In this document: one piece after another, positions 4,847 to 52,707 of the stretch
How positions within the stretch are numbered: the first letter of the stretch is position 1
Layout: each line of letters opens with the position of its first letter
Translations under genes and position numbers: made by a program
Notes under the pieces: generated by a model
What the model saw: the letters and a program-made list of their open reading frames with translations, nothing else
Databases searched by the model: none
What the model was told of the DNA's origin: nothing
Assembly (NCBI GenBank): GCA_947170435.1
Contig: CAMVTO010000002.1
Span: 1-64,000, forward strand
From: an uncultured Clostridia bacterium
Lineage (GTDB): Bacteria; Bacillota; Clostridia; Oscillospirales; Oscillospiraceae
DNA: 64,000 nt
Direction of reading: 5' to 3'

Positions 4847-4937
4847 GGCGTTGACCTCGCAATATCATTTCAGTTTATAGTATACAGAAAAACCGCACAC
4901 TTGGCAAGAGCGTTCCTGACGGCAGGATGAACAAAAA

Positions 4938-26755: not shown

Positions 26756-27592
26756 ATGACGATAACAACCGAACAACTGACCACCTATCGCGCCCACCTG
26801 CGCGCCGAGGAACGCGGCGCCGCGACCGTCGCGAAGTACCTGCACGACGCGACGGCGTTCGCCGCATGGCTGCATGGCGCGGAACTGACGAAAGAACGCG
26901 CCGCAGAGTGGAAGCATGAGCTGCTGCGACGCGGACAAGCCCCAGCCTCCGTCAACGCCGCGCTGGCGGCGCTCAACGGGCTGTTCCGCTTTCTCGGACG
27001 GGAGGACTGCCGCGTCAAGTTTTTGAAGGTGCAGCGGCGTGCGTTTCGGGACGAATCAAAAGAACTGACGCAGGGCGAATATAACGCGCTGGTCGAAACG
27101 GCGAGGGCAAGGGGCAAGACGCGGCTTGCGCTGCTCATTGAGACCATCGGCGGCACGGGCGTCCGCGTCAGCGAAGTCGCGTTTATCACGGTCGAGGCGG
27201 CGCAGCGCGGCCGCGCGGAAATCGCGCTCAAGGGCAAAATTCGGACGATACTCCTGCCCGCCAAGCTCCGCCGCAAGCTGCTCAAGTACGCCAAGGCGCA
27301 AGGCATCACAAGCGGCGCGATCTTCCGCACCGCCACCGGCAAGCCGCTCTCACGCCGCCAGATTTGGGGCGAGATGAAAGCCATCTGCAAAGCCGCGGGC
27401 GTCGAGCCGAGCAAGGTGTTCCCACACAACCTGCGACACCTGTTCGCGGTCGCGTTCTACAAGGTGAGCCGCGATCTCGTGAAGCTGGCGGACGTGCTGG
27501 GGCACAGCAGCATCGAAACCACCCGTATTTACCTGATGACGACAGAAAAAGAACACCAACGGCAGCTTGACCGGCTGCGGCTGGTGTCGTAG
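26756..27592 (+). CDS. Tyrosine recombinase (candidate promoter invertase, cassette 1)
   Basis: XerC/D-like: GGTGVRVSEV, HNLRHLFA, LGHSSIETTRIY; ends 5 bp before inverted repeat. Confidence 0.93.
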   Translation: MTITTEQLTTYRAHLRAEERGAATVAKYLHDATAFAAWLHGAELTKERAAEWKHELLRRGQAPASVNAALAALNGLFRFLGREDCRVKFLKVQRRAFRDESKELTQGEYNALVETARARGKTRLALLIETIGGTGVRVSEVAFITVEAAQRGRAEIALKGKIRTILLPAKLRRKLLKYAKAQGITSGAIFRTATGKPLSRRQIWGEMKAICKAAGVEPSKVFPHNLRHLFAVAFYKVSRDLVKLADVLGHSSIETTRIYLMTTEKEHQRQLDRLRLVS

Positions 27593-27597
27593 GAACG

Positions 27598-27853
27598 GAA
27601 TTCGTATTCCGATGATTGTTTCAGATGGTCACATAGAGACAATACTACCGATACATACTTTCTTATACCATATAATCCCGGTTGATGCAACATATTTTTT
27701 GAATTTGAGTACAAAAAACTGAGCCTCGCAGTTGGAATGCTGCTAAGGCTTGACTGAACACACCCTTTTGTTCCTGTCTCAGGAGCAAGAGGGCGCTTTT
27801 TTATGTTTTAAGGGGCTCCTCGGTGACCTGCGCTGTAATCGGAATACGAATTC
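27598..27853. promoter_or_regulatory. Candidate invertible promoter segment, cassette 1 (apparently OFF)
   Basis: gaattcgtattccgat 27598-27613 / atcggaatacgaattc 27838-27853 (16-bp IR); minus-strand promoter TTGCAT-17-TATAAG (27690-27662); plus-strand terminator ~27760-27806. Confidence 0.8.
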
Positions 27854-27875
27854 TGATTACAAGGGAGGCATGGCG

Positions 27876-28079
27876 ATGAACCTGCAATTCAAGCTTGCGA
27901 GCGCGGAGCGCATGGAGCGCTGCGTGCTGTGCGGCCGCATGACCGACGTGCCCGTCAGCCGTCCGGTGACGGAGCGGACGCATTACGTCGACGGCGCGGG
28001 AGAGCTCTGCCCCGCGTGCTTCGCGGAGGTCTACGGCGTGAGCGAGCTGCGGTGGATCACGGAGCCGGCGGCGCTATGA
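27876..28079 (+). CDS. Small zinc-ribbon-like protein
   Basis: CVLCGRM...CPACFAE Cys pairs; overlaps next gene. Confidence 0.6.
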   Translation: MNLQFKLASAERMERCVLCGRMTDVPVSRPVTERTHYVDGAGELCPACFAEVYGVSELRWITEPAAL

Positions 28080-28570
28080 GAACACCGCACAGCACCAAAC
28101 GCCTCGACCTCACCGGACAGCGCTTCGGCCTGCTGACGGTCGTCAGGCGCGTCGAGAGCATCGGCAATCGCACCGCGTGGCTGTGCCGCTGCGACTGCGG
28201 CAATGAGCGCGTGGTCAAGACCATCCACCTGCGCGAGGGCAAGGTGAAAAGCTGCGGCTGCGTGAAAGCCTTGCACAGTGAGAGCGCACTGGGCCTGCAC
28301 TACATCGACGGCACCTGCGTCGAGATGCTGCGGGCGAACACCAAGCGGAGCAACAACAAAAGCGGCGTGGTCGGCGTAATGTGGCGCGCAAGTTGCCACA
28401 AGTGGCAGGCAAGCATCATGTTCAAGGGCACGCGCCACAATCTCGGTGTGTACGACCTCTTTGACGACGCGGTCGCGGCGCGCCGGGAGGCAGAGGCGCT
28501 CTATTACGATTCGTTCCTCGCGGACTATGACGCACAGCAGGCCGCCGAAACGCAGGGAGCGCCGGCGTGA
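28076..28570 (+). CDS. AP2-domain-type DNA-binding protein with N-terminal zinc-ribbon module (cassette 1, copy 1)
   Basis: LDLTGQRFGLLTV...CRCDCGNE...KSCGC plus NNKSGVVGVMWRASCHKWQASIMFKGTRHNLGVYDLFDDAVAARREAE. Confidence 0.8.
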   Translation: MRTPHSTKRLDLTGQRFGLLTVVRRVESIGNRTAWLCRCDCGNERVVKTIHLREGKVKSCGCVKALHSESALGLHYIDGTCVEMLRANTKRSNNKSGVVGVMWRASCHKWQASIMFKGTRHNLGVYDLFDDAVAARREAEALYYDSFLADYDAQQAAETQGAPA

Positions 28571-29256
28571 TGAAACGGACATACACCACCAGGCGCCTCG
28601 ACCTGACCGGACAGCGATTCGGCAAGCTCACCGTCCTCTCCCGCGCCGAGAACATCGGGCGAGATACCGCGTGGCACTGCCGCTGCGACTGCGGAAACGA
28701 GCTCACCGTCCGCACCTGTTACCTCCGCAAGGGCGAGAAGCGCGACTGCGGCTGCGATACACCGGTTCCGCTGCTGGCGGGCACCCGCCAATACGACCTC
28801 ACAGGCCAACGCTTCGGAAAGCTGACGGCGCTAAAGCCCATAGGCGCGCCGGACGGCAAAAACTACCGCTGGCTGTGCCGTTGTGATTGCGGCAGTGAGG
28901 TGACGGCGCAAATCGGAAACCTGCGGAACGGCAAGACGACCAGCTGCGGCTGCGACCGGGTGCCGCTTGCCAAATATCTGCACTACGTCGACGGCACGAG
29001 CGTCGATCTGCTCCGCAGCCAGACGGTCCACTCCAACAACTCCAGCGGTGTGAGCGGTGTGTACTGGGTAAAACGGCAGCAGCGCTGGGCGGCTTCGATC
29101 GGCTTCAAGGGCGAGCGTTACCATCTCGGCTTGTTTGACCGCTTTGCCGACGCCGTCGCGGCGCGCAAGGAGGCGGAGCAGAAGTATTTCGGCGCGTTCC
29201 TTGCGGACTATGACGCCAAACAGGCTATGACCGAACCGGCGGGAGCCGGGTCGTGA
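28570..29256 (+). CDS. AP2-domain-type protein with duplicated N-terminal zinc-ribbon module (cassette 1, copy 2)
   Basis: Two copies of DLTGQRFGKLT...CRCDCG...CGC then SSGVSGVYWVKRQQRWAASIGFKGERYHLG. Confidence 0.8.
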   Translation: MKRTYTTRRLDLTGQRFGKLTVLSRAENIGRDTAWHCRCDCGNELTVRTCYLRKGEKRDCGCDTPVPLLAGTRQYDLTGQRFGKLTALKPIGAPDGKNYRWLCRCDCGSEVTAQIGNLRNGKTTSCGCDRVPLAKYLHYVDGTSVDLLRSQTVHSNNSSGVSGVYWVKRQQRWAASIGFKGERYHLGLFDRFADAVAARKEAEQKYFGAFLADYDAKQAMTEPAGAGS

Positions 29257-29274
29257 CCATAGAATTTGAATCGA

Positions 29275-29440
29275 AAGGATGTGATACTCAGGCAAAAGCG
29301 TGGCAGGATTGCGGGGCGCACCCGCTTGTCGCCGGGTTTGGTTGCGCAGACCGGCGACGGCGGGAGGATGCGCCGGAGTTTCATCGGGGGACTACGTAGA
29401 CTGATGATGCACGCCGTTCGCGCGCGAGATACTTTATTGT
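29275..29440 (+). ncRNA. Conserved structured leader element of unknown class (cassette 1)
   Basis: Near-identical block in cassette 2 with a compensatory change in hairpin gtcgccgg-gtttggttgcgcaga-ccggcgac. Confidence 0.55.
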
Positions 29441-29442
29441 AC

Positions 29443-29524
29443 AACCGCAAAACCGTTGGGAAACCCGGTGACGCAAAGTCGTGCGGCTAAGTCGCTGAAA
29501 GGCGATACGCTAGGCAGACCGCCA
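29443..29524 (+). promoter_or_regulatory. c-di-GMP-I (GEMM)-like aptamer 1 of 3, cassette 1
   Basis: gcaaaaccgttgGGAAAcccggtgACGCAAAGtcgtgcggCTAAG...TACGctaggcagaccgcc. Confidence 0.6.
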
Positions 29525-29539
29525 GATATGGCATCTTCA

Positions 29540-29669
29540 TTGGCAAGGATATCGAAAGATATCTCACGCAAAGCCGCGTGTTGGGAAACCGCACGCTTAG
29601 GAGGCTAAAGCCGATGCGAAGTCCAGATAATGGATGCGCGCGGAGGCCAAGTCCGTCCGGCTGCCGAGG
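29540..29669 (+). promoter_or_regulatory. c-di-GMP-I (GEMM)-like aptamer 2 of 3, cassette 1
   Basis: ggcaaggatatcGAAAgatatctcACGCAAAGCC...ggaggCTAAag...ccgtccggctgccgagg. Confidence 0.65.
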
Positions 29670-29685
29670 ATATAATATCTGCTTT

Positions 29686-29764
29686 GGCACGGCGGTGGGA
29701 AACCCCGCTTCGCAAAGCCAGAGGCTACGGCGCAGACGCGCTACGCCCGTTCGGCCGCCGGGGA
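29686..29764 (+). promoter_or_regulatory. c-di-GMP-I (GEMM)-like aptamer 3 of 3, cassette 1
   Basis: ggcacggcggtgGGAAAccccgcttCGCAAAGCCagaggCTACg...TACGcccgttcggccgccgggg. Confidence 0.6.
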
Positions 29765-29916
29765 TCTTTGCCTCCGCAAGAAGGAAAGGAAACCCGTTTG
29801 CATCCGCCGCCCGGAGACGCGGGCGTGATGCTTTGGCATGACGCCGCCGCCGGATGGGCGGTGCGGCGATCGGTTTTCTAAAACTGATTGAAATTGCAAA
29901 GAAAGGAAGTATCAAA

Positions 29917-32900
29917 ATGAAAACTTTGAAAAAGAGTCTCGCGATGCTGCTGGCGCTGGTCATGAGCCTTGGCTGCATGAGCGTCGGCGTGTGGGCAACG
30001 GACGACGATACGCTAGATAAAGAGACTGTTGAGGCTGACAGCAGTGGTTACACAAAACTTTCCGAAGGTCTCTATCAAGATAATGAAAGTTATAGCTCCG
30101 CCCAAAACTTCTATATCACCAGCAAAGACGGACTGTTTTACTTTCAGAAAATTGTTAATGGAGATAAAGAAACCACGGAAACTGTCTTTGGAAATGTTAT
30201 AAATGCCTACCAAGGTAACATTTTCACGGGAAAAACAGTTCATTTGCTTACGGATATTGACCTAGAAAATATTTCTTGGACCCCAATCGGGTATGTTCAC
30301 GGACAGAACGATGAAAGCACTTATAACGAGGACAAAATGCTGTTTTATGGCAACTTTGATGGTCATAACCATACGATCTCTAACATAACTGTAGCGACTA
30401 GTTCGAATAATAATAAGGGCGAGTATGGATTCTTTGGAAGAATTGGCGCGCCTGGTGGTAAAAATCAGACCTTTAAAGATCTGACTTTGAACAACGTTAC
30501 AGTGAGTGGCGAGTCGTACGTCGGCGCATTTGTCGGAAACGGCCAGAGCAACCCGGTAACCTTTGATAACTGCCGAGTGACAGGAAGCATCAATCTCAGC
30601 GGTAGTTATACTGGCGCAATCTACGGTATTGGCAACGGGAACGTCAAGAATTGCTCAGTCTCCGGTGATACTGACAGCGAAATCTACAGCGAAATCTTCG
30701 GTTATAACTATGCCGGTGGACTTGTCGGAGCAGAGCGCAACGGAGGTCAGGATCTCGCCATCACCGGCAATAAAGTCAGTGGCGTTAAGATCACTTCCTC
30801 CCAATATGCGGGCGGTCTGGTCGGTGCTATGTCGAGTGGTGCGGCAGGTACGCTGACGATTGGCGGCAACGACGTTGCTGGCGACGTCGTGGTTTCCGGC
30901 AAATATTCTGATAAGCTTATCGTCGAATTCGACGATGCCGGCAAAGCTACCCTGAGCGAAGGTTGGTACTCTACGGTTATCAAATATCCTGTCGCGCAGA
31001 TCGGCAACGAGTATTATACCACCCTCGCGGAGGCAATCGCGGCGGTTCCGACTGACGGTACCGAGACCACCATCACGATGGTGGGGGATATCGACGAGGA
31101 GTTGACCGAAGATGTCGGCAGTACAGGTGCATACTGGAAGATTGCTGCTGGGCAGAATATTGTTCTTGATCTGAACGGACATACGATCAAGCTCAAAGAA
31201 GGTGTCTGTCAGCCAGATCCCAAAACGGCAAAGAGCTATGCGATGTTCGAGAACAAAGGTACTTTTACTGTGGATGATACAAGCGCTGCTGGTACGGGAA
31301 GCATTCTGTTCAACCACCCGTATTACAAGATGTATAACTCGTCCTTCACGGCAATAAAGTACAACATTGCTCGAAACGATATCTCAAACCACGGAACGCT
31401 TGTTTTGAACAACGGCTTAATTAAGCAGGAAGCTTTTGAAGTTGAGGGTTATACAGATGGTGCGGGTACTGCAATGTATACCGTTGATAACTATGTCGGC
31501 TCTAGCTTTACGATGAACGGCGGGCATCTGTACAATTACTTCTCTAACGCGGTTCGTGTATTCGACAATGGTCCCGCTGCGGGCAGTATTACATTCAACG
31601 GCGGCTTAGTCGAAGGTTACAATTCTGTTTGGCTGCAATATACCAACAATACCACTCTTACGATCAATGGTGGTACGTTTAAAACCACCGCGAAAAACTA
31701 TCCCGATTCCAATACGCAATTATATAGTTCGTCTAAATCTTCTACAAGTCTGAACGTTGTGATCACGGGAGGCACATTCTACGAGAGTGTCAGTTTTTAT
31801 GCGAAAAACATTGATCTAAGTGTGACAGGCGGTACCTTCAAGGAGTGGCTTGAAGCCTATGATTACAGCGGCAACGGCTTTAAGCACGCGCAAGTTAGCG
31901 GCGGCAATTTCATGGATGTCTGCTTACAATACCAGCAGGGTGATTCTTGGTATTGGAAGGATTCGATAACTGGCGGTCTTTTCAGCACTGCGCCGGAATC
32001 GACCTACGAAACGAGCAGTGGAACCAGCACTCGTGATTATCCGAACTGCATCGCCCCCGACCACGCCGCGGTGCAAGTGACCGAGGGCGACTACGAAGGC
32101 TGGTATCTCGTCGGTCCGATTCAGTACGCTTCCCGCGAGATCATCACCGTCGATGAGGACACCTACCTCGTGAAGTCGTACGTGGAAGACGATGCCCAGA
32201 ACGAGCTTGAGGTTGCGAGCACCTCCGTCTCCGTGGCGTCCATCACCGAGGAGAGCATTGCGGCTGAGGAAGTCAAGACCACCGAGACCGTGTCCCTCGC
32301 CAACGTGAAGACCAAGAACGTTGCCGAGACCGCCGCAGCGATGGCTGTTGCCGCCGGTGCGACGGATGCTACGGACATCAACGTCACCATCAAGCTGGAA
32401 AAGCAGGATGACACTGAGGCGCAGAGCGATAACTTGGTGGAGACCTTCGGCGGCGCGCAGGAGGTCTTCGAGGTTCACCCCGTGGCGACCTACACGGCAA
32501 CCAAGACGGTTGGCGATGAGGTGCAGACGATCGCGACCGAGACGTTCACCATTGCCAACGATGACCTCGAGGGCAGCTTCACCTTCAACCTGTATCTGGA
32601 CAGCACGAAGTACAGCGGTCTTGAGGCTGGCAATCTCGTCACCGTCACCCACTATAAGGATGACAACACCACCGAAACTTGGAACAAGAAGGTGCAGCAG
32701 GACGAGGATGGGAACCTCTACGTCGAACTGACGCTCAGCAGCTTCTCCCACGTCGCGGTCAAGGCGAACAGTGATCCCACCGCGACCGTCGACTACACGG
32801 TCAAGATCGCGGACGCCACCTCCGGCACGGCGGTCATCTACCCGGGCGATTCCGTCACCATGAACGTCACCGTTTCCGGCGACGACTTCTACGGCGGCGA

Positions 32901-34125
32901 CTTCACCATCGAGTATGACAAGACCGCGTTCGATCTGGGCGAAGTCAGCCTGCCCGCAGGCATTGAGGTGCAGGCATCCGTCACGGATGTTGACACGACT
33001 GATGATACCAAGTATCAGCTCAACTACAACCTCGTCAACGGCGGTGCGCGTCTTGCCGACGGCTCCAAGATTCTCTCTCTCACCTTCACGGCGAAGAGCA
33101 ATCTGACCGAGACCAAGGAGTATGACTTCAAGGTTGTCAGCGCGAGCGTCAACTACAACAACGAGGAAAACGCGGATGATGCCGAGATCATCTCCAACGA
33201 CAAGGTCAAGGTCAACGCGACGCAGTACACCGTGAAGTTTGACGGCGAGTCCCACGATTGGGAGTATTCGGTCTATCAGGGCAAGGGCGTGGACACGATC
33301 CCGACCGACGTTAAGACCGGCTACACCTTCAAGGGCTGGGCGCTGACGGACACCGCGACCACCGCGCTGACGAACGAGGAAATCCGCAACGCTGCCGTGA
33401 CCGCGGACGTCATCTATTACCCCGTCTTTGAGGCGGAGCAGTATGATGTAACGCTGTCCGGCGCGACCGGCGACGCCAAGGCGACCTTCGGTCAGGACTA
33501 CACCGCGACCATCAGCGACTATGACGCGAACAACTATGACTACACCGTGACCTACAAGTCCGGCACCGACGCGAGCAAGACGCTTGAATTGACCGAGGAT
33601 AGCTTCGATGCGGAGACCGGAAAGTTCATCATCCCCGCGGCGGATATCACCGGAGCGCTGACCGTCACGGTCGAGAAGACCCTCAAGGGCTTCGAGGTCG
33701 AGCTGCACGCCGACTACGTCACCGGCTACACGCTGGTGCTGGTCAAGGCTGCCGAGGGCAACAACAGCAACCCGACCTACACCTATGACGACGGCGCGAT
33801 GTTCTTCGTGAATGAACTGAACAAGGCTGATAACTCGAAGGCTTACGGCGCATACGCCATCCTCGTCGAGGGCGCGATCACCGAGAGCGCGGCGCGTGCC
33901 AAGGTTGGCATCACCACCGCGACGGCCACTGAGCTGGACATCCAGACGGATGTCAACGCGACCGGTCTCATTGACTCCTCCGACCTGCAGGCGGCGTTCT
34001 CCGGCTACAAGGTTCAGCTGACGCTCCCGACGCAGATGGCGATCTATCTGCGCGCGGACGTCAACGGCGACTACAAGCTGGATACTGCCGACGTCGGTCT
34101 GGTCAACAACGCGAGAGCACAGTAA
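29917..34125 (+). CDS. Large secreted surface protein with beta-helix-like N-terminal region, cohesin-like domain, InlB-type repeat and C-terminal dockerin-like segment
   Basis: Signal peptide MKTLKKSLAMLLALVMSLGCMSVGVWA; TVKIADATSGTAVIYPGDSVTMNVTVSGDDFYGGDFTIEYD (cohesin-like); C-term DVNATGLIDSSDLQAA...LRADVNGDYKLDTADVGLV (dockerin-like pair). Confidence 0.85.
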   Translation: MKTLKKSLAMLLALVMSLGCMSVGVWATDDDTLDKETVEADSSGYTKLSEGLYQDNESYSSAQNFYITSKDGLFYFQKIVNGDKETTETVFGNVINAYQGNIFTGKTVHLLTDIDLENISWTPIGYVHGQNDESTYNEDKMLFYGNFDGHNHTISNITVATSSNNNKGEYGFFGRIGAPGGKNQTFKDLTLNNVTVSGESYVGAFVGNGQSNPVTFDNCRVTGSINLSGSYTGAIYGIGNGNVKNCSVSGDTDSEIYSEIFGYNYAGGLVGAERNGGQDLAITGNKVSGVKITSSQYAGGLVGAMSSGAAGTLTIGGNDVAGDVVVSGKYSDKLIVEFDDAGKATLSEGWYSTVIKYPVAQIGNEYYTTLAEAIAAVPTDGTETTITMVGDIDEELTEDVGSTGAYWKIAAGQNIVLDLNGHTIKLKEGVCQPDPKTAKSYAMFENKGTFTVDDTSAAGTGSILFNHPYYKMYNSSFTAIKYNIARNDISNHGTLVLNNGLIKQEAFEVEGYTDGAGTAMYTVDNYVGSSFTMNGGHLYNYFSNAVRVFDNGPAAGSITFNGGLVEGYNSVWLQYTNNTTLTINGGTFKTTAKNYPDSNTQLYSSSKSSTSLNVVITGGTFYESVSFYAKNIDLSVTGGTFKEWLEAYDYSGNGFKHAQVSGGNFMDVCLQYQQGDSWYWKDSITGGLFSTAPESTYETSSGTSTRDYPNCIAPDHAAVQVTEGDYEGWYLVGPIQYASREIITVDEDTYLVKSYVEDDAQNELEVASTSVSVASITEESIAAEEVKTTETVSLANVKTKNVAETAAAMAVAAGATDATDINVTIKLEKQDDTEAQSDNLVETFGGAQEVFEVHPVATYTATKTVGDEVQTIATETFTIANDDLEGSFTFNLYLDSTKYSGLEAGNLVTVTHYKDDNTTETWNKKVQQDEDGNLYVELTLSSFSHVAVKANSDPTATVDYTVKIADATSGTAVIYPGDSVTMNVTVSGDDFYGGDFTIEYDKTAFDLGEVSLPAGIEVQASVTDVDTTDDTKYQLNYNLVNGGARLADGSKILSLTFTAKSNLTETKEYDFKVVSASVNYNNEENADDAEIISNDKVKVNATQYTVKFDGESHDWEYSVYQGKGVDTIPTDVKTGYTFKGWALTDTATTALTNEEIRNAAVTADVIYYPVFEAEQYDVTLSGATGDAKATFGQDYTATISDYDANNYDYTVTYKSGTDASKTLELTEDSFDAETGKFIIPAADITGALTVTVEKTLKGFEVELHADYVTGYTLVLVKAAEGNNSNPTYTYDDGAMFFVNELNKADNSKAYGAYAILVEGAITESAARAKVGITTATATELDIQTDVNATGLIDSSDLQAAFSGYKVQLTLPTQMAIYLRADVNGDYKLDTADVGLVNNARAQ

Positions 34126-34212: not shown

Positions 34213-34241
34213 GCAATCATATGAAGAAAGGGATAGATACC

Positions 34242-36542
34242 ATGAAAACAATTAAAAAATGTGTATCGCTTGCTCTGCCTCTGGCGCTGTTGGTCTCCCT
34301 GTGCGCGGGGTTTTCCGTGCCGGCGCTCGCCGCAAGCGACATCGCGCTGACCTATGACCTGAGCGCTGGAGGCGACCATGTCGTCTCCGTCGAAAACCCG
34401 GGCGACACCGTCGCTGTGACCTTTGCCATGCGGCGTACCGACGCCACCGAGAACTACTCGCTCTTCTCCATGCAGAACGAGATCGAGTACGACATGAGCT
34501 TCTTCGAGTTTGTCAGCGCCGCGGCGGTGCACAGCGCCAATTATAACGGCATCACGACACGGCCGACAATCCTGCATCAGACGCGCACCACCGGTCAGAG
34601 CATCGTCAAGACGACGATCATGACGGCGAACGACGTCTATCAGGCGGAGGAGACGTTCTGCACCGTGACGCTGCGTGTGCGGACAGACGCCGGATTGCAA
34701 ACAGGCGACAGCGGCTGGGTCCGCTCCAGCGAAGCCAAGGCAAACGAGCGTGACGTGGACGCCTGCGCCGTCACCGCGCAGGACCTGACCGTGTTCCTCG
34801 GCGCAATTCCCACAACGAGCTATCAGGTCAGCTTTGACGCCAACGGCGGCACATGGAGCACCGCCGCCGACGATCCGAGCGGAACCTATGCCGCCAACGC
34901 GTCCATCACCCTTCCCACGCCCGTGCGCGAGGGCTACGTCTTCGACGGCTGGTACGTCGGCACGACAGCGGTGGACGGCACGGCATATACGGTGACCGCG
35001 GACGCCACGCTGACCGCGCACTGGCGCGGCAGCTACACCGTTACGTATGTACTGGCCGGTGGAAACAATCTTTCCGGCGGCAACACCGTGGGCGCCAACG
35101 AGGGCGACATGATCACGCTGCCGAAGCCGGTTCGCGTCGGTTATGTGTTCAACGGTTGGTCTGACGGCACAGCGACATATGTCGCCGGTGCGAGCTATAC
35201 CGTGAAAGGCAATGCAACGCTGACCGCCACATGGACTGCATGCGCGCACCCCGAAGCGAGCCGTCAGGTGACCGGAAGCCGCACTGCTTATCTGCACAGC
35301 GGCCTATCCGTCCATGACGTGCAGGTGAGCACTGACTATCGCTGCGGCGACTGCGGCGCGGTGCTAGACAGCGTGACCGCGACGACCGCTTCCGGCGTGG
35401 CGTGTACAGGGACACACATAGGCGAAAACTGGCTCAGCAACGCCACCCAGCACTGGCATCACTGCGATGTGGAGAACGCCGATGTTGATATTGCCGACCA
35501 CGTTTACGACAACGACGCCGATACGACCTGCAACGTCTGCGGCTATACCCGCACGGTCGAAACCGGCGGCGGAACCGGAGGCGCAGGCGGCGGTGGCGGC
35601 GGCACAGGCGGAGGCGGTGGCGCCGGCGGCGGAAGCATCGTGAATCCCGGTGGAGGTACCACCACCATCGTGGATAACGAGGTCCCGTTGGCGGACGTGG
35701 ACAGCATCATCGTCACCAGCCTCGTCGATCCCACCACGGGCGCCAGCGTCAGCGGCGAGCGCGACGAGAACGGCCACGTGGTCGTCACCGTAAAGGACGC
35801 CGGCGGCAACGTGCTCGACACCGTCCCCGGCGGCGTGCGGGTCTCCTTCACCATCCGCGAGGGCGAGGTCGCGATCCTGCTGGACAAGGACGGCAACGAG
35901 ATCGATCTGCTGGAGAAGTCCATCGTCGAGGACCAGACCGCCTATGTGCTCGTGGACGGAAGCTGCACCATCGACATCAAGTACAACGCCAAGCCGTTCG
36001 ACGACGTGATGCCCTACGACTGGTTCAACAGCGCGGTCGTGTTCGCATCCAGCCACGAGCTGTTCCAAGGTGTCGCCGAGGGCGTGTTCGCGCCGAATAT
36101 GCCCATGACCCGCGGCATGCTGGTCACTGTGCTCTGGCGCCTGGAGAACAAGCCCGAGGACTTTGCGACGAATCAGTTCCCCGACGTGGCGGACGGCACA
36201 TGGTATACCGAAGCGGTGGGATGGGCGGCAAAGAACGGGCTTGTCAAGGGCTATGATAACGGAACATTTATGCCGGACCGCAACATCAGCCGTCAGGAGA
36301 TGGCGGCGATCCTGCACCGCTACATGAGCTATCTGGGCTACGATATGTCCGCACAGGACAACCTGTCGACCTTCGCAGATGGCGACAGCGTCGGCGCATG
36401 GGCTCTGCCGAGCGTGCAATGGGCTGTCGGCACCGGTATTATCACCGGCAAGGACGGCAGTCGCATCGACCCGCTCGGGAACGCTACCCGCGCGGAGGTT
36501 GCAACCATGTTTATGCGCATCGTGACCGAGATGGTCATGTAA
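34242..36542 (+). CDS. Secreted SLH-anchored surface protein with cohesin-like N-terminal domain and InlB-type repeats
   Basis: Signal peptide; DTVAVTFAMRRTD...SMQNEIEYDMSFFEFVSA...EETFCTVTLRVRTDA; Gly-rich linker; three C-terminal SLH repeats. Confidence 0.88.
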   Translation: MKTIKKCVSLALPLALLVSLCAGFSVPALAASDIALTYDLSAGGDHVVSVENPGDTVAVTFAMRRTDATENYSLFSMQNEIEYDMSFFEFVSAAAVHSANYNGITTRPTILHQTRTTGQSIVKTTIMTANDVYQAEETFCTVTLRVRTDAGLQTGDSGWVRSSEAKANERDVDACAVTAQDLTVFLGAIPTTSYQVSFDANGGTWSTAADDPSGTYAANASITLPTPVREGYVFDGWYVGTTAVDGTAYTVTADATLTAHWRGSYTVTYVLAGGNNLSGGNTVGANEGDMITLPKPVRVGYVFNGWSDGTATYVAGASYTVKGNATLTATWTACAHPEASRQVTGSRTAYLHSGLSVHDVQVSTDYRCGDCGAVLDSVTATTASGVACTGTHIGENWLSNATQHWHHCDVENADVDIADHVYDNDADTTCNVCGYTRTVETGGGTGGAGGGGGGTGGGGGAGGGSIVNPGGGTTTIVDNEVPLADVDSIIVTSLVDPTTGASVSGERDENGHVVVTVKDAGGNVLDTVPGGVRVSFTIREGEVAILLDKDGNEIDLLEKSIVEDQTAYVLVDGSCTIDIKYNAKPFDDVMPYDWFNSAVVFASSHELFQGVAEGVFAPNMPMTRGMLVTVLWRLENKPEDFATNQFPDVADGTWYTEAVGWAAKNGLVKGYDNGTFMPDRNISRQEMAAILHRYMSYLGYDMSAQDNLSTFADGDSVGAWALPSVQWAVGTGIITGKDGSRIDPLGNATRAEVATMFMRIVTEMVM

Positions 36543-37064: not shown

Positions 37065-37618
37065 GAGAATGTATTTGATCGACGATGCTGCCGCGCATGA
37101 TGAGCGGACGGAAATCGTCGGATTTAGGGCGGATCATTTTTTAGGGCGGATCTTTCTTAGGGCGGAGCATGGAGACAAGGGGGTACTATGCCCTTTTGCC
37201 TTTCCGCAAATCGACCGGGAAGAGTATTACGACCGAGAAAATAAAATAACCGAGAGCTTTTAAAAGACACGAGAAGACTTGAAGAGTCCCTTCATGGGAC
37301 AGAGACAGTCTTACCGTGTCTTTTTATATATCTGCGCAAATGTACCGGTTCGCCACTCCGGTACAGCAGGAACGATGACATGACACCCCAAATTGATGAT
37401 GGACCAAGAATGCCGTTTGGACGGTACGGCAGAGAACCGTCCGGAGAGCCCGGCAAGCTCTCGCCTCCTGCGCCGATGCAGTCAGAGTGCATCGCCGGCG
37501 ACGCAGGCCTCCCTCGCAACCGATCCGCAGCCGGAGCGGATCAAAGGACACACGCGGCGATTGGTCAGAGCAATCGCGCACCCGAGTTCAGCGGGCGTGT
37601 CCGCCGCCTCGTCGAAGC

Positions 37619-37667
37619 AAACTGCGCTCGCTTCGTTTCCGCCTGACGGCGAAAACTGCGTATCGCT
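37619..37667 (-). repeat. Interspersed repeat, copy in E1 intergenic region
   Basis: aaactgcgctcgcttcgtttccgcctgacggcgaaaactgcgtatcgct. Confidence 0.75.
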
Positions 37668-37953
37668 GCGTTGCTTCTCCTCTCCGAACCGCAAACGCTT
37701 CGCTGGTTTGCGCTTCGGTAGGGGAACGGCGAAGAGAACGCATCAGTTCTCCCTGCGGCGTTTGTACTGACCATGTTCAAACCTCAATCAGAGACAGACG
37801 ACGCCTCGTTGCACCGAATTCCTCTGTTACAAAGGCTTCTCCGTCTCTGAGCTGCGCCGATTCCGCGGAAATCAAACGGAAACGGCGGCGGATGCCAACG
37901 GGTGGACTATGCCCATTCGCCTGAACGACTATCATCAATTTGGAGGTTCATTC

Positions 37954-38868
37954 ATGTCTACATACAACATCTATCTCGCCCTCGTCGCCCAGCTGGACAA
38001 GTTGGCGCGGCACAACCGGCAAGGGAGCTTTCAAACGAAACGGCGCTACTACGAGGCGATGCAGCGTTTTTGTCGCTACCTCGCCGAGGAATATCACCTG
38101 CAAAAGCTCTCGAACATCAGCGGCAAGCACTTCGCCGCCTACGCAGAGTATCTGCAGGAAAGCGGCAAGTCGGCGAGCACCATCAAGACCGATCTCGCGG
38201 CGATCCGATTCTTCCACGACAAGATGGAGCACGCCAAATATCGCCTGCCTGACAACGACGCCCTCGGCGTGGAGCTGGAGCGCCGGCGCTTCGGCGGCGT
38301 GGATCGCACATGGAGCGCGGTCGAGTTCAACCGCATGATCGGCAAGGCGGTGGAGGCGGGGCGTGACGATATTGCCTGCGCGCTGTATCTCGGACGCTTC
38401 GCCGGACTGCGTATCCACGAGGTCATGCGGATCGACACCGCCATTGCAGAGCAGGCGCTGCGCGAGGGCGCCATCACCATCAAGGGCAAGGGTGGAAAAA
38501 TCCGTACCGTCCCCATTGAGGATGAGCGCGTCCGCGTTGCCCTTGAGACCATGCTTAAACGCACCGAGCGCGGACACAAGCTGTTTGTGCCGGACGGCGC
38601 GCCAACCGACCGCGCCATCAACGGCGTGCAGTTGTTCATTCTCAAGCACCGAGACGCCGTTGCCGACGAGGGCCGCGAGGCAAACCTGACCTTCCATGGG
38701 CTGCGCCACAGCTATGCCGCGGACAAGCACCGTACGCTGACTGAAAAGGGCGTGAGTGCCCTCGACGCGCATTTCACCGTGTCGCGTCTGCTTGGCCACG
38801 AACGTCCCGATGTGACGAACATCTATCTTGCATCGGTCAAGAAAAAGGAGGCGCACGATGGAGAATAA
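37954..38868 (+). CDS. Tyrosine recombinase (XerC/D-like)
   Basis: FAGLRIHEVMRID...TFHGLRHSYA...LLGHERPDVTNIYL; RBS ttggagg before ATG 37954. Confidence 0.92.
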   Translation: MSTYNIYLALVAQLDKLARHNRQGSFQTKRRYYEAMQRFCRYLAEEYHLQKLSNISGKHFAAYAEYLQESGKSASTIKTDLAAIRFFHDKMEHAKYRLPDNDALGVELERRRFGGVDRTWSAVEFNRMIGKAVEAGRDDIACALYLGRFAGLRIHEVMRIDTAIAEQALREGAITIKGKGGKIRTVPIEDERVRVALETMLKRTERGHKLFVPDGAPTDRAINGVQLFILKHRDAVADEGREANLTFHGLRHSYAADKHRTLTEKGVSALDAHFTVSRLLGHERPDVTNIYLASVKKKEAHDGE

Positions 38869-39049
38869 GTATCGCTCCCTCGATGAACTGCCGCTGGCGC
38901 TCCGTGTGGAGGACTTGATGCCGATTCTCGGCATTGGGCGCAACACCGCCTATGAGTTGGTGCGCAGCGGACAGATTCGCAGCATCAAAATCGGGCGTCA
39001 AATCCGCGTGCCGCGCGACGCGGTGGCGGAGTTCCTCGGTAGGAATTGA
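38858..39049 (+). CDS. Excisionase-like helix-turn-helix protein of E1
   Basis: LALRVEDLMPILGIGRNTAYELVRSGQIRSIKIGRQIRVPRDAVAEFLG. Confidence 0.9.
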   Translation: MENKYRSLDELPLALRVEDLMPILGIGRNTAYELVRSGQIRSIKIGRQIRVPRDAVAEFLGRN

Positions 39050-39135
39050 CGCCACAACGACGCCAACGCTGCTCTCAAAGCTATGAATGACGCCGCGTTG
39101 ACGTCAAAGTATCTCAAACAAACGATTGCAAAAAA

Positions 39136-46582: not shown

Positions 46583-47419
46583 ATGACGATAACAAAAGAA
46601 GACCTGACCGCGTATCGCGCCCACTTGCGGTCCGAAGAACGCAGCGCCGCGACCGTCGCGAAGTACCTGCACGATGTAGCCGCATTTGCGCTATGGCTGA
46701 ACGATACGCCGCTGACCAAGGAAGCTGCCGCGGACTGGAAGCAAGAGCTATTGCGCCGCGGACAAGCTCCTGCGACTGTCAACGCCGCTTTGGCGGCGCT
46801 CAACGGGCTGTTCCGGTTTCTCGGACGCGATGACTGTCGCGTGCGGTTCCTCAAGGTCCAGAGGCGCGCATTCCGGGACGAATCCAAAGAGCTGTCACAG
46901 GGCGAATACACCGCGCTCGTCAATACCGCAAGGGCGCAAGGCAAAGCACGCCTCGCGCTGCTCATCGAGACCATCGGCGGCACGGGCATCCGCGTCAGCG
47001 AGGTCGCGTATATCACGGTCGAGGCGGCACAGAGAGGGCGCGCGGAAATCGCACTCAAGGGCAAAATCCGCACGATTCTCCTGCCCGCGAAGCTCTGCCG
47101 AAAGCTGCTCAAGTACGCCAAGACGCAGGGTATCACAAGCGGCGCCATCTTCCGCACCGCAACCGGCAAGCCGCTCTCGCGGCGCCAGATTTGGGGCGAG
47201 ATGAAGGCCATCTGCAAGGCGGCGGGTGTGGAACCGAGCAAGGTATTCCCGCACAACCTGCGACACCTGTTCGCGGTGGCGTTTTATCGCGTGAGCCGTG
47301 ACATTGTGAAGCTCGCGGACGTACTGGGGCACAGCTCCATTGAAACGACGCGCATCTACCTCATGACGACAGAAAAAGAACACCAACGGCAGCTTGACCG
47401 GCTGCGATTGGTGTCGTAG
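46583..47419 (+). CDS. Tyrosine recombinase (candidate promoter invertase, cassette 2; ~90% identical by eye to 26756-27592)
   Basis: Gap-free 278-aa match to cassette 1 recombinase; HNLRHLFA, LGHSSIETTRIY. Confidence 0.93.
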   Translation: MTITKEDLTAYRAHLRSEERSAATVAKYLHDVAAFALWLNDTPLTKEAAADWKQELLRRGQAPATVNAALAALNGLFRFLGRDDCRVRFLKVQRRAFRDESKELSQGEYTALVNTARAQGKARLALLIETIGGTGIRVSEVAYITVEAAQRGRAEIALKGKIRTILLPAKLCRKLLKYAKTQGITSGAIFRTATGKPLSRRQIWGEMKAICKAAGVEPSKVFPHNLRHLFAVAFYRVSRDIVKLADVLGHSSIETTRIYLMTTEKEHQRQLDRLRLVS

Positions 47420-47420
47420 G

Positions 47421-47682
47421 ACGGAATACACATTCCGTTATATGCTCCAAGCGGAAAAATAGTGACATAGACACTATTACATAATCTTTATACCACATAA
47501 TCCCCAGCTATGCAATACTTTTTTATCAATATGAGCGCAAAAATCTAAGCCCCGCGGCTTAAAAAACCGCCAGGCTTACTTCAGTGCACCCTTTTGTTCC
47601 CATTCGCGGAACAAGAGGGTGCTTTTTTGTGTTTTGAGGGGGCTTTGGGTGCTTCGCCCTGTCAACGGAATGTGTATTCCGT
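47421..47682. promoter_or_regulatory. Candidate invertible promoter segment, cassette 2 (apparently OFF)
   Basis: Perfect 18-bp IR acggaatacacattccgt 47421-47438 / acggaatgtgtattccgt 47665-47682; minus-strand promoter TTGCAT-17-TATAAA (47515-47487); plus-strand terminator gcacccttttgttcc...ggaacaagagggtgctttttt 47586-47628. Confidence 0.85.
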
Positions 47683-47701: not shown

Positions 47702-48193
47702 ATGGCTCACACCACCGCCCGCCTTGACCTGACCGGACAGCGCTTCGGAAAGCTCACCGTCGTCGCGCCCGCCGAGAATATCGGACGGCGCACCGCTTGG
47801 CTGTGCCGGTGCGACTGCGGCGGCGAGCGCATCGTCAAGACCGTACACCTCCGCGAGGGCAAGGTCACGAGCTGCGGCTGTGCCAAAGAAAAGCACAGCG
47901 CAAGCGCACTGGGCCTGCACTATGTCGACGGCACCTGCGTCGAGATGCTGCGCGCGAACACCAAGCGCCGCAATAACAAGAGCGGCGTGGTCGGCGTGGT
48001 GTGGAGACCGGCGCGCCGCAGATGGCAGGCGAGCATCATGTTCAAGGGCACGCGCCACAACCTCGGCATGTACGCCCAATTCGACGACGCGGCAAAGGCG
48101 CGGCGGGAGGCCGAAGCGCTGTACTACGGCTCGTTTCTCGCGGACTTCGACGCGAAGCGGGCTATGACCGAACCGGCGGGAGCCGGGTCGTAA
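47702..48193 (+). CDS. AP2-domain-type zinc-ribbon protein (cassette 2)
   Basis: LDLTGQRFGKLTV...CRCDCGGE...SCGC; NNKSGVVGVVWRPARRRWQASIMFKGTRHNLGMY; tail MTEPAGAGS as in cassette 1 copy 2. Confidence 0.82.
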   Translation: MAHTTARLDLTGQRFGKLTVVAPAENIGRRTAWLCRCDCGGERIVKTVHLREGKVTSCGCAKEKHSASALGLHYVDGTCVEMLRANTKRRNNKSGVVGVVWRPARRRWQASIMFKGTRHNLGMYAQFDDAAKARREAEALYYGSFLADFDAKRAMTEPAGAGS

Positions 48194-48212: not shown

Positions 48213-48380
48213 AGGATGTGATACTCAGGCAAAAGCGTGGCAGTTCAGCGGGGCGCACCCGCTTGTCGTCGGGTTTGGTTGCGCAGACCGACGACGGCGG
48301 GAGAATGTGCCGGAGCTTCATCGGGGGGACTACGTAGACCGATAAGGTACGCCGTTCGCGCGCGAGACAACAAAATGTAC
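48213..48380 (+). ncRNA. Conserved structured leader element of unknown class (cassette 2)
   Basis: Homologous to 29275-29440; hairpin gtcgtcgg-gtttggttgcgcaga-ccgacgac 48265-48295. Confidence 0.55.
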
Positions 48381-48458
48381 ACCGCAAAACCGGGGAAATC
48401 CGGCGACGCAAAGGCAGGAGGCTAAGGGGCGCAAGCTCTATGCTCGTCCGCCCGCCAG
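48381..48458 (+). promoter_or_regulatory. c-di-GMP-I (GEMM)-like aptamer 1 of 3, cassette 2
   Basis: gcaaaaccggGGAAAtccggcgACGCAAAGgcaggaggCTAAGgggcgcaagctcTATGctcgtccgcccgcc. Confidence 0.65.
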
Positions 48459-48474
48459 ATATGGCGTCTTCACT

Positions 48475-48600
48475 CAGCAAAGCCGTCGAAAGGCGGCGAC
48501 GCAAAGCCGCGTGTTGGGAAACCGCACGCTTAGGAGGCTAAGACCTTATGCCTATTACTGTGCAAGGGAGGCAAAGGTTATGCTCGTCCGGCTGCCGAAG
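48475..48600 (+). promoter_or_regulatory. c-di-GMP-I (GEMM)-like aptamer 2 of 3, cassette 2
   Basis: agcaaagccgtcGAAAggcggcgACGCAAAGCC...CTAAG...TATGctcgtccggctgccgaag. Confidence 0.7.
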
Positions 48601-48615
48601 ATATGATATCTTCTT

Positions 48616-48815
48616 TAGCAAACCCGCTGAAAAGCGGCGACGCAAAGCCAGAGCCCCTGTCGGAACAAACCGTATCCCCGTCTTTATCCGAGCAGAACCC
48701 AACGAAGTGGTTCTGCGAGGAAGAGGAGGGGCAACGAAGCGATACGCAGTTTTCGCCGCAAGGCGGAAACGGAGCGAGCGCAGTTTGACCCGACGAGGCC
48801 GTTCGGCCGCCGGGG
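48616..48815 (+). promoter_or_regulatory. c-di-GMP-I (GEMM)-like aptamer 3 of 3, cassette 2, interrupted by a repeat insertion
   Basis: agcaaacccgctGAAAagcggcgACGCAAAGCCagagcccctgtcgg ... cgacgaggccgttcggccgccgggg. Confidence 0.5.
48738..48786 (+). repeat. Interspersed repeat, copy inside third aptamer of cassette 2
   Basis: 46/49 identical to reverse complement of 37619-37667. Confidence 0.75.
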
Positions 48816-48961: not shown

Positions 48962-51697
48962 ATGAAGAAACTGAAAAAATCATTATCTCTCCTCTTAGCG
49001 CTCGTCATGGTACTCAGCTGCATGAGCGTCGGCGTGTTCGCGGACGGCTCTTCTGTCACTTTCAACAATGTGGTCTATGATTCGCTGGAAGCAGCAGTAA
49101 ATGTTGCAAACGGTGAACAGATTACTTTGGGTGAAGGAACATACACGCTTAATATTGCACATAATAACCAAATTACAAAGACAATCAATATTAAGGGTGC
49201 CGGCAAAGACAAAACAGTTATCAATGCACCCACTGCAGAAAACTGTTATGGCGGATTTACAAATATCGTGCTTGAGGACTTAACCATCGCATGTGATAAC
49301 TATAATTATCACAACTGGGCATATGTTGCTAACGCGACGTATAAAAACTGCAAGATTACCGGCCTCTTTACCAACTATGCTCCCACGGTAAAGTTTGAAA
49401 TGTGCGAGTTTGTACAGACGACAGACGATCAGTATAGCATCTGGACATATGCAGGTACGAATGTGACCTTCGATACCTGCACTTTTACGGCAAGCAAGAA
49501 CAGCAAAAGTGTCCTCTGCTATACTGAACAGGATCTTGGCAGTGTTGCAAAGATACAGTTTACGAACTGCTCGTTTTCCTGTAACAAGGAAGTGGAGAAG
49601 TCCGCTGTGATGATCAACCCGACTGCGTATGATAATGTGAACACCTATGTGGTTTCCTTCACAAACTGCAACGCTACGGGCTATGGCACGAACCAGATTG
49701 AGGATGTTGACGGTCTTGTCGGATTGAAGAAAACAGTCAAGGACAACATCACCATCACCATTGACGACACACAGGTCTATCCCGAGGTTGCCGCTCCCGC
49801 GGTTGCCACGATCGGCACCACCGAGTACCCGACGCTGGCTGCGGCTGTCGCGGCTGTCAATGCTGGCGAGACAAAAACCATCAAACTGCTGTCTGATGCT
49901 TCGGGTGCTGGTATTTTTGTCGAGGCTAACGGCAACAGAAACATTACCGTTGATTTCAATGGATACACCTACACCTGCACTGGCCCGGCTGTTGGTTCTA
50001 CTGGTACGGAGTCCCAAGCGTGGCATCTTGAAGAGGGTAACACCATTACCTTGAAAAACGGTACTGTAACAACCAGCACTCTTGAAGACTATTATACGAG
50101 TGGAAACGTGCATGGTGTTTTGATGATTATCCAGAACTACTGTGACCTTACTCTGGACCATATGACGGTTGACGGACAGCACATGTATTATAATGGCACA
50201 TATGCTTTGTCCAACAACAACGGGACAGTAAAGATCAAGGACACAACCATTACTCGCAGCAGGTACGGTAATGGTCCAATCGCTTTTGACGTCTGCCGTT
50301 ACAGCAGCTATCCCTCCGTCAATGTTACAGTTGAAGGCAACAGCGTGATCAATGGTAATATCGAATTTGACGTGGGTTCAGCTAATCCGAAAGATGGTGC
50401 GCATCTGTTCATTACCAGCGGTACGATCAATGGCCAGATTAAGCCGACCGAAAAGGGTGCAACGGCGTTGGCGGCTGACAATAGTAAAGCCTCCATCTCC
50501 ATCACCGGCGGCACGTTCAGCAGCGATCCCAGCGCGTATGTCGCCGCAGGCTACCTTGCCGTTGAGACGGTGCCGAACACCACTTGGGTCGTAAAGCATG
50601 CCACAACGACGTCCAGCACACCGGAGTCAACGGATAAGGGCAGCAGTGTTGTGGTCAATACCGCCACCGCAACCGAAGCAGCGGCTACTGCAACAGAGTA
50701 TTCCGTCACGGTTACGGCTAACCAGCAGGACCCCACCACCATCAGTCTGATTGACTCTGCTGAGGCCAGCGTGAGCAATATTGCCACAAGCTCCCTTGCG
50801 AGCGTTGTCAAGTCTCTGGTTGAACAGGTTGAGAGTCAGAATACGACGCTTTCAAATGATGGCTACTTCCAGATTGAGCTGAAGAAGAACGACAATGCTG
50901 ACATTGCTAGTGATAGCACGGCGACTGATGAAGTAATAACAGCCATTGGCGCCGCCGACGTTGTGTTTGACGTCTATCCTGAACTGGTTGCCTACGATGC
51001 CGATGACAACGTTGTCGCTTCCGCGAAGGTTAACAATGACCAGCTTGCGAGTGGCGCGTCATTTACGTTCTCGCTTGATCTCGGCGTCGAGTACGCCAGC
51101 AAAATCGTCACGCTGACGCACTATCACTATGACGAGACGTCTGGGACGTGGACGACGACCGTTCTCGGCGACTTCGCGACGGACAGTACCGGCAAGGTTT
51201 CCGGCATCACAATGAGCGAGTTCAGCTATATCGCGGCGAATGCCGGCGCATCGGTGGATTCTACCGAGTATGGCTATATTGATGAAGCGCAGATGAACCT
51301 GTACTCCTATCTGGACTTCCATGTAAAAATCCAGCTGACCCAGGCGGGCGTTGCTGCGGTTGGTAATGGCCTCTTGCTCTCCGTGATTTATGACAGCGAC
51401 CCTGATCAGAACGAAACCTACACGCTGAGTGATCTGACCGGAACAGATGGATTGTATGATATCGCGGTTCAGGTTCGGCCGAGACATTTGTATAAGGATG
51501 TTGCGTTCCAACTCATGAGCGCGGATCGTAATACAGTGTATCAGATGTGGAGTCCTGAAAGCGGAGAGGGGACAACCGCCTCTATTTCCCCCGACTATTA
51601 TCTGGATACAGTCCAGGGGTACGATGCTGTCATTTCGGCCTTGCATAGTTATGCTGATGCGGCGATTGATGTGTGGGGAGATGGCGTAACATATTGA
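48962..51697 (+). CDS. Large secreted surface protein with beta-helix-like repeats (cassette 2 cargo)
   Basis: Signal peptide MKKLKKSLSLLLALVMVLSCMSVGVFA, nearly the same as cassette 1 cargo; different mature region. Confidence 0.8.
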   Translation: MKKLKKSLSLLLALVMVLSCMSVGVFADGSSVTFNNVVYDSLEAAVNVANGEQITLGEGTYTLNIAHNNQITKTINIKGAGKDKTVINAPTAENCYGGFTNIVLEDLTIACDNYNYHNWAYVANATYKNCKITGLFTNYAPTVKFEMCEFVQTTDDQYSIWTYAGTNVTFDTCTFTASKNSKSVLCYTEQDLGSVAKIQFTNCSFSCNKEVEKSAVMINPTAYDNVNTYVVSFTNCNATGYGTNQIEDVDGLVGLKKTVKDNITITIDDTQVYPEVAAPAVATIGTTEYPTLAAAVAAVNAGETKTIKLLSDASGAGIFVEANGNRNITVDFNGYTYTCTGPAVGSTGTESQAWHLEEGNTITLKNGTVTTSTLEDYYTSGNVHGVLMIIQNYCDLTLDHMTVDGQHMYYNGTYALSNNNGTVKIKDTTITRSRYGNGPIAFDVCRYSSYPSVNVTVEGNSVINGNIEFDVGSANPKDGAHLFITSGTINGQIKPTEKGATALAADNSKASISITGGTFSSDPSAYVAAGYLAVETVPNTTWVVKHATTTSSTPESTDKGSSVVVNTATATEAAATATEYSVTVTANQQDPTTISLIDSAEASVSNIATSSLASVVKSLVEQVESQNTTLSNDGYFQIELKKNDNADIASDSTATDEVITAIGAADVVFDVYPELVAYDADDNVVASAKVNNDQLASGASFTFSLDLGVEYASKIVTLTHYHYDETSGTWTTTVLGDFATDSTGKVSGITMSEFSYIAANAGASVDSTEYGYIDEAQMNLYSYLDFHVKIQLTQAGVAAVGNGLLLSVIYDSDPDQNETYTLSDLTGTDGLYDIAVQVRPRHLYKDVAFQLMSADRNTVYQMWSPESGEGTTASISPDYYLDTVQGYDAVISALHSYADAAIDVWGDGVTY

Positions 51698-51891: not shown

Positions 51892-52707
51892 GTGTCCGCT
51901 CCTCAATTTATGAGGATGATAAACAATATGCGGAATGTTTTTCGATGCTGTCTTATGTTGATGGCATGCTTTGCGTTATTATTACCTGTTCGGGCAGATG
52001 ACAGTTCACTACCAACTGTGAGTTTTAAGCGGGAGGAATCGACAAGTCAGGAACAGTCTTTGCCTGTAGAAGTTCCCTCCCCTATCCCCGCGCCCTCTGG
52101 CGGCTCCGGCTTCGCGTCCCCCATCGTGAACAGCAAGGCCATCGAGATCCTGCTGGCCGACGGCACGTCCATCGTCCTGCCGTTCCTCGACGTGCCGCAG
52201 GACGCCTATTACACTGCGGCTGTCGCGTGGGCGTACAGCCATGACCCGCAGATCACCGGCGGCGTCAGCGCCGAGCGCTTTGACCCGCTGGGGACCTGCA
52301 CCCGCGGTCAGATGGTGACCTTCCTCTGGCGCGCGGCGGGCTGCCCCGAGCCGACCGGAACGGCGTCCGCGTTCTCTGACGTAGCGGCGGGGAGCTGGTA
52401 CGAAAAGGCGGTCGCGTGGGCGGTTGCGAACGGCATCACCGACGGCGTAGGCGGAGGCAGATTCGACCCGAACGGCATTGTGAACCGCGCGCAGGCGGTC
52501 ACGTTCCTGTACCGCGCCAAGGGCAAGCCCGCGGCAACGGCTGCGGAGAGCTTCACCGACGTTGGAAGCGGCGCGTACTACGCCGACGCGGTGGCGTGGG
52601 CGGTTGCGAACGGCGTCACGGACGGCGTGGGCAACAACAGCTTCGCGCCGAACGCGAACTGCGTCCGCGGCCAGACGGTCACGTTCCTGTACCGCGCGTA
52701 CAAGTAA
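51892..52707 (+). CDS. Secreted protein with three SLH domains
   Basis: Signal peptide and three SLH repeats (e.g. FSDVAAGSWYEKAVAWAVANGITDGVGGGRFDPNGIVNRAQAVTFLYR). Confidence 0.9.
   Translation: MSAPQFMRMINNMRNVFRCCLMLMACFALLLPVRADDSSLPTVSFKREESTSQEQSLPVEVPSPIPAPSGGSGFASPIVNSKAIEILLADGTSIVLPFLDVPQDAYYTAAVAWAYSHDPQITGGVSAERFDPLGTCTRGQMVTFLWRAAGCPEPTGTASAFSDVAAGSWYEKAVAWAVANGITDGVGGGRFDPNGIVNRAQAVTFLYRAKGKPAATAAESFTDVGSGAYYADAVAWAVANGVTDGVGNNSFAPNANCVRGQTVTFLYRAYK

Follow-up and report, generated by a model that had tools for sequence, protein, structure and literature searches.

A narrowly distributed structured RNA between predicted invertible promoters and tandem c-di-GMP-I aptamers in surface-gene leaders of two Clostridia species

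Two surface-gene cassettes in a 64,000-nucleotide stretch of an uncultured Clostridia bacterium (contig CAMVTO010000002.1, positions 1 to 64,000; hereafter the window) share a block of non-coding DNA in front of their c-di-GMP riboswitches, raising the question of what this block is and what it may do for the genes downstream. The earlier note had proposed a new structured RNA at 29275-29440, with a counterpart in the second cassette. The conserved block is present in both cassettes, the two window copies (w1 and w2) align at about 91% identity, and the element is ~155 bases long; the interval proposed for cassette 1 contains it, but its last few bases are the start of the first c-di-GMP-I aptamer (29436). 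The hairpin that had suggested an RNA was recovered letter for letter, with the arms GTCGCCGG/CCGGCGAC at 29328-29335/29351-29358 in cassette 1 and GTCGTCGG/CCGACGAC at 48265-48272/48288-48295 in cassette 2, and the two differ by exactly the C-G to T-A change described. The 15-nt loop, said to be fully conserved, is identical in both window copies, whereas the corresponding P4 loop of other copies has 8-15 nt and two sequence types. The features of the locus are listed in table 1.

Protein coding of the element was ruled out by stops and frame-breaking indels; its core is non-coding, as claimed, and the indels between copies are not multiples of three. A scan against Rfam 15 gave no family for 29276-29431 at the gathering or a relaxed threshold, returning chance matches only (mir-1247, 17.9 of 70 bits), and the element matched neither the c-di-GMP-I family RF01051 nor its variants. 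Based on DNA and covariance-model searches, eight homologous copies were identified, four in the host genome (G000, with the window on contig C2) and four in a sister species of the same genus (G003). The host copies are w1, w2, C44 (locus L022) and C49 (L023), and the sister species contains three full copies (G3a, L024; G3b, L025; G3c, L026) and a degenerate one (L075). The element is carried by these two species only: no further genome with it was found among 300 genomes of the family and 394 of the order at the thresholds used, the sister species was the sole additional source among the GTDB contigs, and a search of IMG/VR with exact motifs found no element. Sub-threshold matches within the genus (E 0.08-0.35) were taken as chance, and neither inspection by eye nor the model revealed the element in L076-L080, which are c-di-GMP-I leaders from further species of this genus.

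Table 1. Coordinates of the element and of the features around it (window positions unless a locus or contig is named)
Feature	Position	Strand	Remarks
Tyrosine recombinase/integrase, candidate invertase, cassette 1	26756-27592	+	PF00589 1.3e-23
Left inverted repeat, cassette 1	27596-27611	+	CGGAATTCGTATTCCG
Predicted promoter in putative invertible segment, cassette 1	27662-27690	-	TTGCAT-N17-TATAAG; points away from surface gene (OFF)
Intrinsic-terminator-like hairpin with T run, cassette 1	27763-27803	+	faces surface gene when OFF
Right inverted repeat, cassette 1	27838-27855	+	ATCGGAATACGAATTCTG
First AP2-like ORF, cassette 1	27929-28570	+	no own Pfam match
Second AP2-like ORF, cassette 1	28567-29256	+	weak PF00847, below gathering score; end overlaps upstream hairpin
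Upstream hairpin, cassette 1	29224-29253	+	GCTATGACCGAACCGGCGGGAGCCGGGTCG; GNRA-type tetraloop
Extended Shine-Dalgarno-like strand	29273-29286	+	GAAAGGATGTGATA; complementary to 16S rRNA tail
Structured RNA element, copy 1	29276-29431	+	model R1 (P2/P3/P3b/P4/P5); 157.9 bits, covariation
P2 helix			CAGCG/CGCUG
P3 helix			GGCGCA/UGCGCC
P3b helix			CCCGC/GCGGG or CGCUC/GAGCG
P4 hairpin, copy 1	29328-29358	+	hairpin of the earlier note
P4 arm versions			GUCGCCGG/CCGGCGAC, GUCGUCGG/CCGACGAC, CGUCGCGGGCG/CGCCCGUGACG, others
P5 hairpin, copy 1	29381-29410	+	TCATCGG..CTGATGA; loop palindrome CTACGTAG
P5 helix versions			UCAUCAG/CUGAUGA or UCGUCGG/CUGACGA
Tandem c-di-GMP-I aptamers, cassette 1	29436-29762	+	RF01051: 29436-29526; 29532-29668 (weak); 29676-29762
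Large secreted surface protein	29854-34125 (ORF as listed)	+	weak PF09479, below gathering score
SLH-domain surface protein	34221-36542	+	PF00395 6.4e-31, PF09479
Tyrosine recombinase, cassette 2	46583-47419	+	PF00589 2.7e-24
Putative invertible segment, cassette 2, OFF	47422-47681	+	repeats CGGAATACACATTCCG (47422-47437)/CGGAATGTGTATTCCG (47666-47681)
Predicted promoter in cassette 2 segment	47515-47487	-
AP2-like ORF, cassette 2	47702-48193	+	no own Pfam match at E 0.001
Upstream GNRA hairpin, cassette 2	48164-48193	+
Structured RNA element, copy 2	48213-48369	+	157.2 bits
Tandem c-di-GMP-I aptamers, cassette 2	48373-48664	+	RF01051: 48373-48459; 48466-48599; 48607-48664 (weak)
Secreted surface protein, cassette 2	48962-51697	+	no Pfam match
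SLH protein, cassette 2, after 48962-51697	51892-52707		PF00395 3.2e-29
Element copy C44	C44:3802-3959		host genome
Element copy C49	C49:1486-1640		host genome
Degenerate element copy	L075 12678-12792		between SLH-type gene and next surface gene

A structure alignment of the seven full copies shows that a multi-helix fold (P2, P3, P3b, P4, and P5) is conserved on the gene strand. The copies have the 5′ strand AGGANGUGRUANNNARGCAAAAGCGWGGC in common, and the stretches GUGRUANNNARGCAAAAGCGUGGC, GCGGGGCGCA, and GRAUGYGCCGG are conserved and unpaired. Covariation was compared with a home-made, R-scape-like null (2000 replicates) in which the tree and the substitutions per branch were kept and the substitutions were moved to other columns. 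In the hand alignment, which leans toward the structure, 95% of the cells are paired and there are 56 covarying cell-pairs where the null averages 8.4. When P4 is excluded, the MAFFT alignment as produced, which leans much less (although the structure was itself drawn from these sequences), has 37 covarying cell-pairs, the null expectation being 5.0 for all columns and 3.1 for variable columns. The observed covariation was reached by none of the 2000 nulls (0/2000) in either case, and 88% of the cells of the MAFFT alignment pair compared with 25-53% in controls with shifted 3′ partners. The helices contain 19 G-U cells versus four A-C cells (the cells are not independent), a bias that points to an RNA read on the gene strand rather than a DNA dyad. 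Support for the fold comes from covariation and not from stability, as individual copies have folding energies that do not stand out from those of shuffles (z about -1.2), so that the two window copies alone prove little, and the consensus fold of w2 and C49 is not reached in all helices by energy alone. A hammerhead was considered, given the resemblance of CUGAUGA in P5 to its core, and was rejected: no GAAA partner was seen, and the motif, which is part of a stem that covaries, is altered in w2 and G3a. Two of the checks proposed in the earlier note, the Rfam scan and the alignment of more homologues, came out in its favor: with no Rfam 15 family, eight homologous copies, and covariation among seven sequences well above the tree-aware null, the element, which is undescribed in Rfam, is a genuine structured RNA with a very narrow range.

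Aptamers of the c-di-GMP-I class lie directly 3′ of the element in seven of the eight copies, and RF01051 matches over the gathering score in the leaders reach 55.4, 40.2, 62.3, and 36.9 bits. The middle aptamers (29532-29668 and 48466-48599) carry long insertions inside a conserved arm (hairpin around CCGCGTGTTGGGAAACCGCACGC). Further downstream, the leader stretch 48722-48799 is repeated in inverted orientation at 37606-37683 (88% over 78 bp), near a second recombinase region, and may represent a small mobile repeat that entered the leader downstream of the aptamers. The element could be an orphan riboswitch with its own small ligand, forming a two-input leader together with the c-di-GMP aptamers; its size of about 155 nt, its conserved unpaired stretches, and its place directly before another riboswitch are aptamer-like. 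Known aptamers are usually widespread, however, whereas the element occurs in two of the 394 order-level genomes and has no Rfam relation, and the L075 copy persists after the loss of P5 and the aptamers, making this explanation unlikely, although it deserves serious consideration. The L075 copy has kept the 5′ strand, P3, and P4, and its location between two surface genes without aptamers or P5 indicates that the element can exist apart from the riboswitch and independently of the promoter.

The position of the element in the other copies is defined by the promoters upstream. In cassette 1, a segment of ~250 bp between the recombinase and the AP2-like ORFs carries an extended -10 promoter (TTGCAT-N17-TATAAG/A) flanked by inverted repeats, an arrangement predicted to be of the invertible promoter (inverton) type, which the earlier note had overlooked. 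Based on its family and position, the neighboring tyrosine recombinase probably does the flipping; the cassette 1 enzyme matches Xer/integron-type NCBIfam models below the cut-off, and copies 88-91% identical are found beside cassettes w2, C44, G3c, and L075. The repeats of the cassettes differ in their center (G3a has a third version), which should keep some cassettes from recombining together. The predicted state is OFF in w1, w2, C44, G3a, and L075, with the promoter directed away from and the terminator toward the surface gene (a terminator consensus scan found 4 compared with 2.8 expected in shuffles, and the one at 27763-27803 has 14 pairs). The same segment is inverted in G3c (L026 10696-10955), with the promoter reading into the leader (ON), and both orientations are therefore observed, between homologous loci of two species. 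G3b retains a remnant that lacks the repeats and is fixed as ON, and C49 has an unrelated fixed promoter (TTGCGC-N17-TAAAAT) pointing into the element. Since the promoters of the ON or fixed copies point into the element, it belongs to the predicted 5′ leader of every full copy, downstream of the predicted promoter and directly upstream of the tandem c-di-GMP-I aptamers. The genes that follow encode proteins with signal-peptide-like starts and then SLH-domain proteins (within the ORF at 29854-34125, an ATG near 29918 has a signal peptide and a Shine-Dalgarno sequence), and these surface genes appear to be phase-variable through promoter flipping.

Two further observations concern the recombination machinery. 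Positions 47438-47666 of the cassette 2 segment are 100% identical to C44 (L022) over 229 bp while other parts of the cassettes differ, suggesting a recent exchange or a duplication. Elsewhere in the window, a recombinase-like ORF (37909-38868) is followed by a short helix-turn-helix-like ORF (37909-39050 in total), possibly an integrase/excisionase pair. With a recombinase and inverted repeats nearby, the strong hairpins of the element look like single-strand recombination sites, and the element might be an accessory or attC-like site of the tyrosine recombinase. The inverted repeats sit elsewhere and not at the element, however, the element is kept in C49 and G3b at loci without recombinase and repeats, and the G-U bias favors RNA; hardly any weight is given to this explanation.

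A second hairpin, upstream of the element, is identical at all seven full loci except for the N base of its tetraloop (GGGA, as in cassette 1, or GTGA in four copies) and is better conserved than the element. It overlaps the end of an AP2-like ORF at some loci, including 29224-29253, and is found at other loci without such an ORF. The hairpin is also present in L075 (about 3677-3706), where a SARP/BTAD-type regulator-like ORF (identified by eye) follows instead of the element (3676-5017). The first AP2-like ORF of cassette 1 is 77% identical over 28085-28552 to the AP2-like ORF at 47702. The earlier note had offered the AP2 protein as a possible binding partner, and the element might indeed be the RNA or DNA target of this protein or of another regulator, for example with the loop palindromes CTACGTAG/CTGCGCAG as the point of contact. 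The two species with the element are also exactly those with close AP2 relatives, and the P4 and P5 loops share a URCGYA motif, of which there are two interchangeable versions. No AP2 ORF lies next to C49, G3a, or G3b among the seven full copies, however, the AP2 ORF of L075 has the upstream hairpin next to it and not the element, and the G-U bias argues for RNA rather than DNA dyads. A role as regulator target is therefore considered rather improbable.

The loop palindromes themselves follow a swapping pattern. Four copies (w1, w2, G3a, and G3b) contain UGCGCA in the P4 loop and UACGUA in the P5 loop, C44 and G3c contain the reverse (UACGUA in P4, UGCGCA in P5), and the motifs of C49 are AGCGCA and UGCGCA; only two or three independent lineages stand behind this pattern. 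A kissing loop or pseudoknot between L4 and L5, suspected from the swap, was rejected: cognate L4-L5 pairs reach -4.0 to -5.8 kcal/mol (C49, the exception, -9.2), weaker than the -8.7 to -13.8 of non-cognate pairs between types, which speaks against a simple intramolecular kiss. Each palindrome pairs with itself, and in six of the seven copies the two loops pair poorly with each other, as would be expected if leader RNAs dimerized through the self-complementary hexamers UGCGCA and UACGUA, each pairing with the same loop of another copy. Dimerization is regarded as very doubtful; if it were true, an inversion event could be followed by the linkage and joint regulation of two surface-gene transcripts.

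The 5′ end of the element offers a different indication of function. The Shine-Dalgarno-like strand was compared with the 16S rRNA tail, the sequence of which we took to be that generally known for Firmicutes. It is the strongest site of complementarity in the leader in seven of the eight copies and pairs with the tail more strongly than the Shine-Dalgarno sequence of the actual gene, and the match is strongest in the divergent L075 copy (GGAGGUGAUC). For a single leader the pairing is within chance (observed about -16.5, shuffled median best -14.6), and because the copies are related, their agreement is not independent. The invariant strand GAAAGGAUGUGAUA is not followed by a normal start codon, and a GUG downstream, from which a short conserved peptide (MI-x-R/K-Q-K/R-R-G) could be read, is too close in several copies. 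Small upstream ORFs, this GTG frame (MI-x-[RK]-Q-[KR]-R-G...) and an ATG ACC GAA CCG GCG mini-ORF, might encode leader peptides, with the structure acting as a translational attenuator. The purine-rich Shine-Dalgarno before the GTG frame would fit, as would its first eight codons, which change almost only silently or conservatively, but the spacing to the GTG is too short in several copies, the frame varies from 18 to 109 codons with frame-breaking indels, and the conservation carries on beyond it, paired and non-coding. Translational attenuation is accordingly a very improbable role.

EAR and put antiterminator RNAs are compact leader RNAs ahead of long operons. The element resembles them in this respect and could, with these precedents, act on polymerase as a processive antiterminator or anti-Rho RNA, carrying it through the long untranslated leader and the long operon. 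Such a function would suit a long leader followed by surface genes of 4.3 and 2.3 kb, as well as the intercistronic copy in L075, and Rho is active in the flg switch of Clostridioides difficile (PMC7446863). The Rfam scans matched no antiterminator RNA family, however, and the terminator scan found none clearly downstream within the leader, leaving antitermination unlikely, if still worth weighing.

A strong Shine-Dalgarno sequence stabilizes long Bacillus mRNAs even without an initiation codon (PMC3997798), and this favors a module that captures ribosomes and protects the leader. The preferred reading is that the element acts in cis as RNA and stabilizes the ~650-nt leader, a joint claim to which we assign a probability of roughly 0.4. 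The STAB-SD and ermC-type 5′ stabilizers of Bacilli have a strong Shine-Dalgarno in a leader without a proper start codon (PMC3997798), and the Shine-Dalgarno-like strand of the element may be of this kind, although a GTG follows closely. In contrast to these stabilizers, the strand is combined with a large conserved fold, some 650 nt ahead of the gene. In the proposed mechanism, the neighboring tyrosine recombinase would flip the segment ON, and polymerase would then transcribe the upstream GNRA hairpin, the element, the aptamers, and the surface gene, so that promoter orientation and c-di-GMP would combine as an AND gate. More tentatively, the element would act on its own transcript, protecting and holding the roughly 650-nt untranslated leader: the strand GAAAGGAUGUGAUA would bind 30S subunits in the manner of STAB-SD, being an extended Shine-Dalgarno that lacks a proper start codon, and the P2-P5 fold would block nucleases and prevent the leader from mispairing with the aptamers. 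Transcription, inversion of the segment, and function of the element are all deduced from the sequences.

Inversion combined with a c-di-GMP riboswitch is already known from the cmr and flg switches of C. difficile, where recombinase-driven inversion and the riboswitch jointly control one operon, with the riboswitch upstream of the switch (PMC8844915). A literature search, largely of papers available without subscription, found only this C. difficile work on such an architecture. Both systems would couple the same two devices, but the order seen here is reversed, with the riboswitch after the predicted invertible promoter, and the present cassettes differ further in their two to three class-I aptamers, in the recombinase that accompanies every complete cassette, and in the additional structured RNA. 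For the leaders of surface-layer genes, the finding contributes an RNA that is supported by covariation and had not been described, and three layers of control, a promoter probably flipped by a recombinase, a structured RNA, and tandem c-di-GMP sensors, would be stacked in one leader. The reversed order would limit the action of c-di-GMP to ON cells, a prediction for how gut bacteria may combine bet-hedging with signaling.
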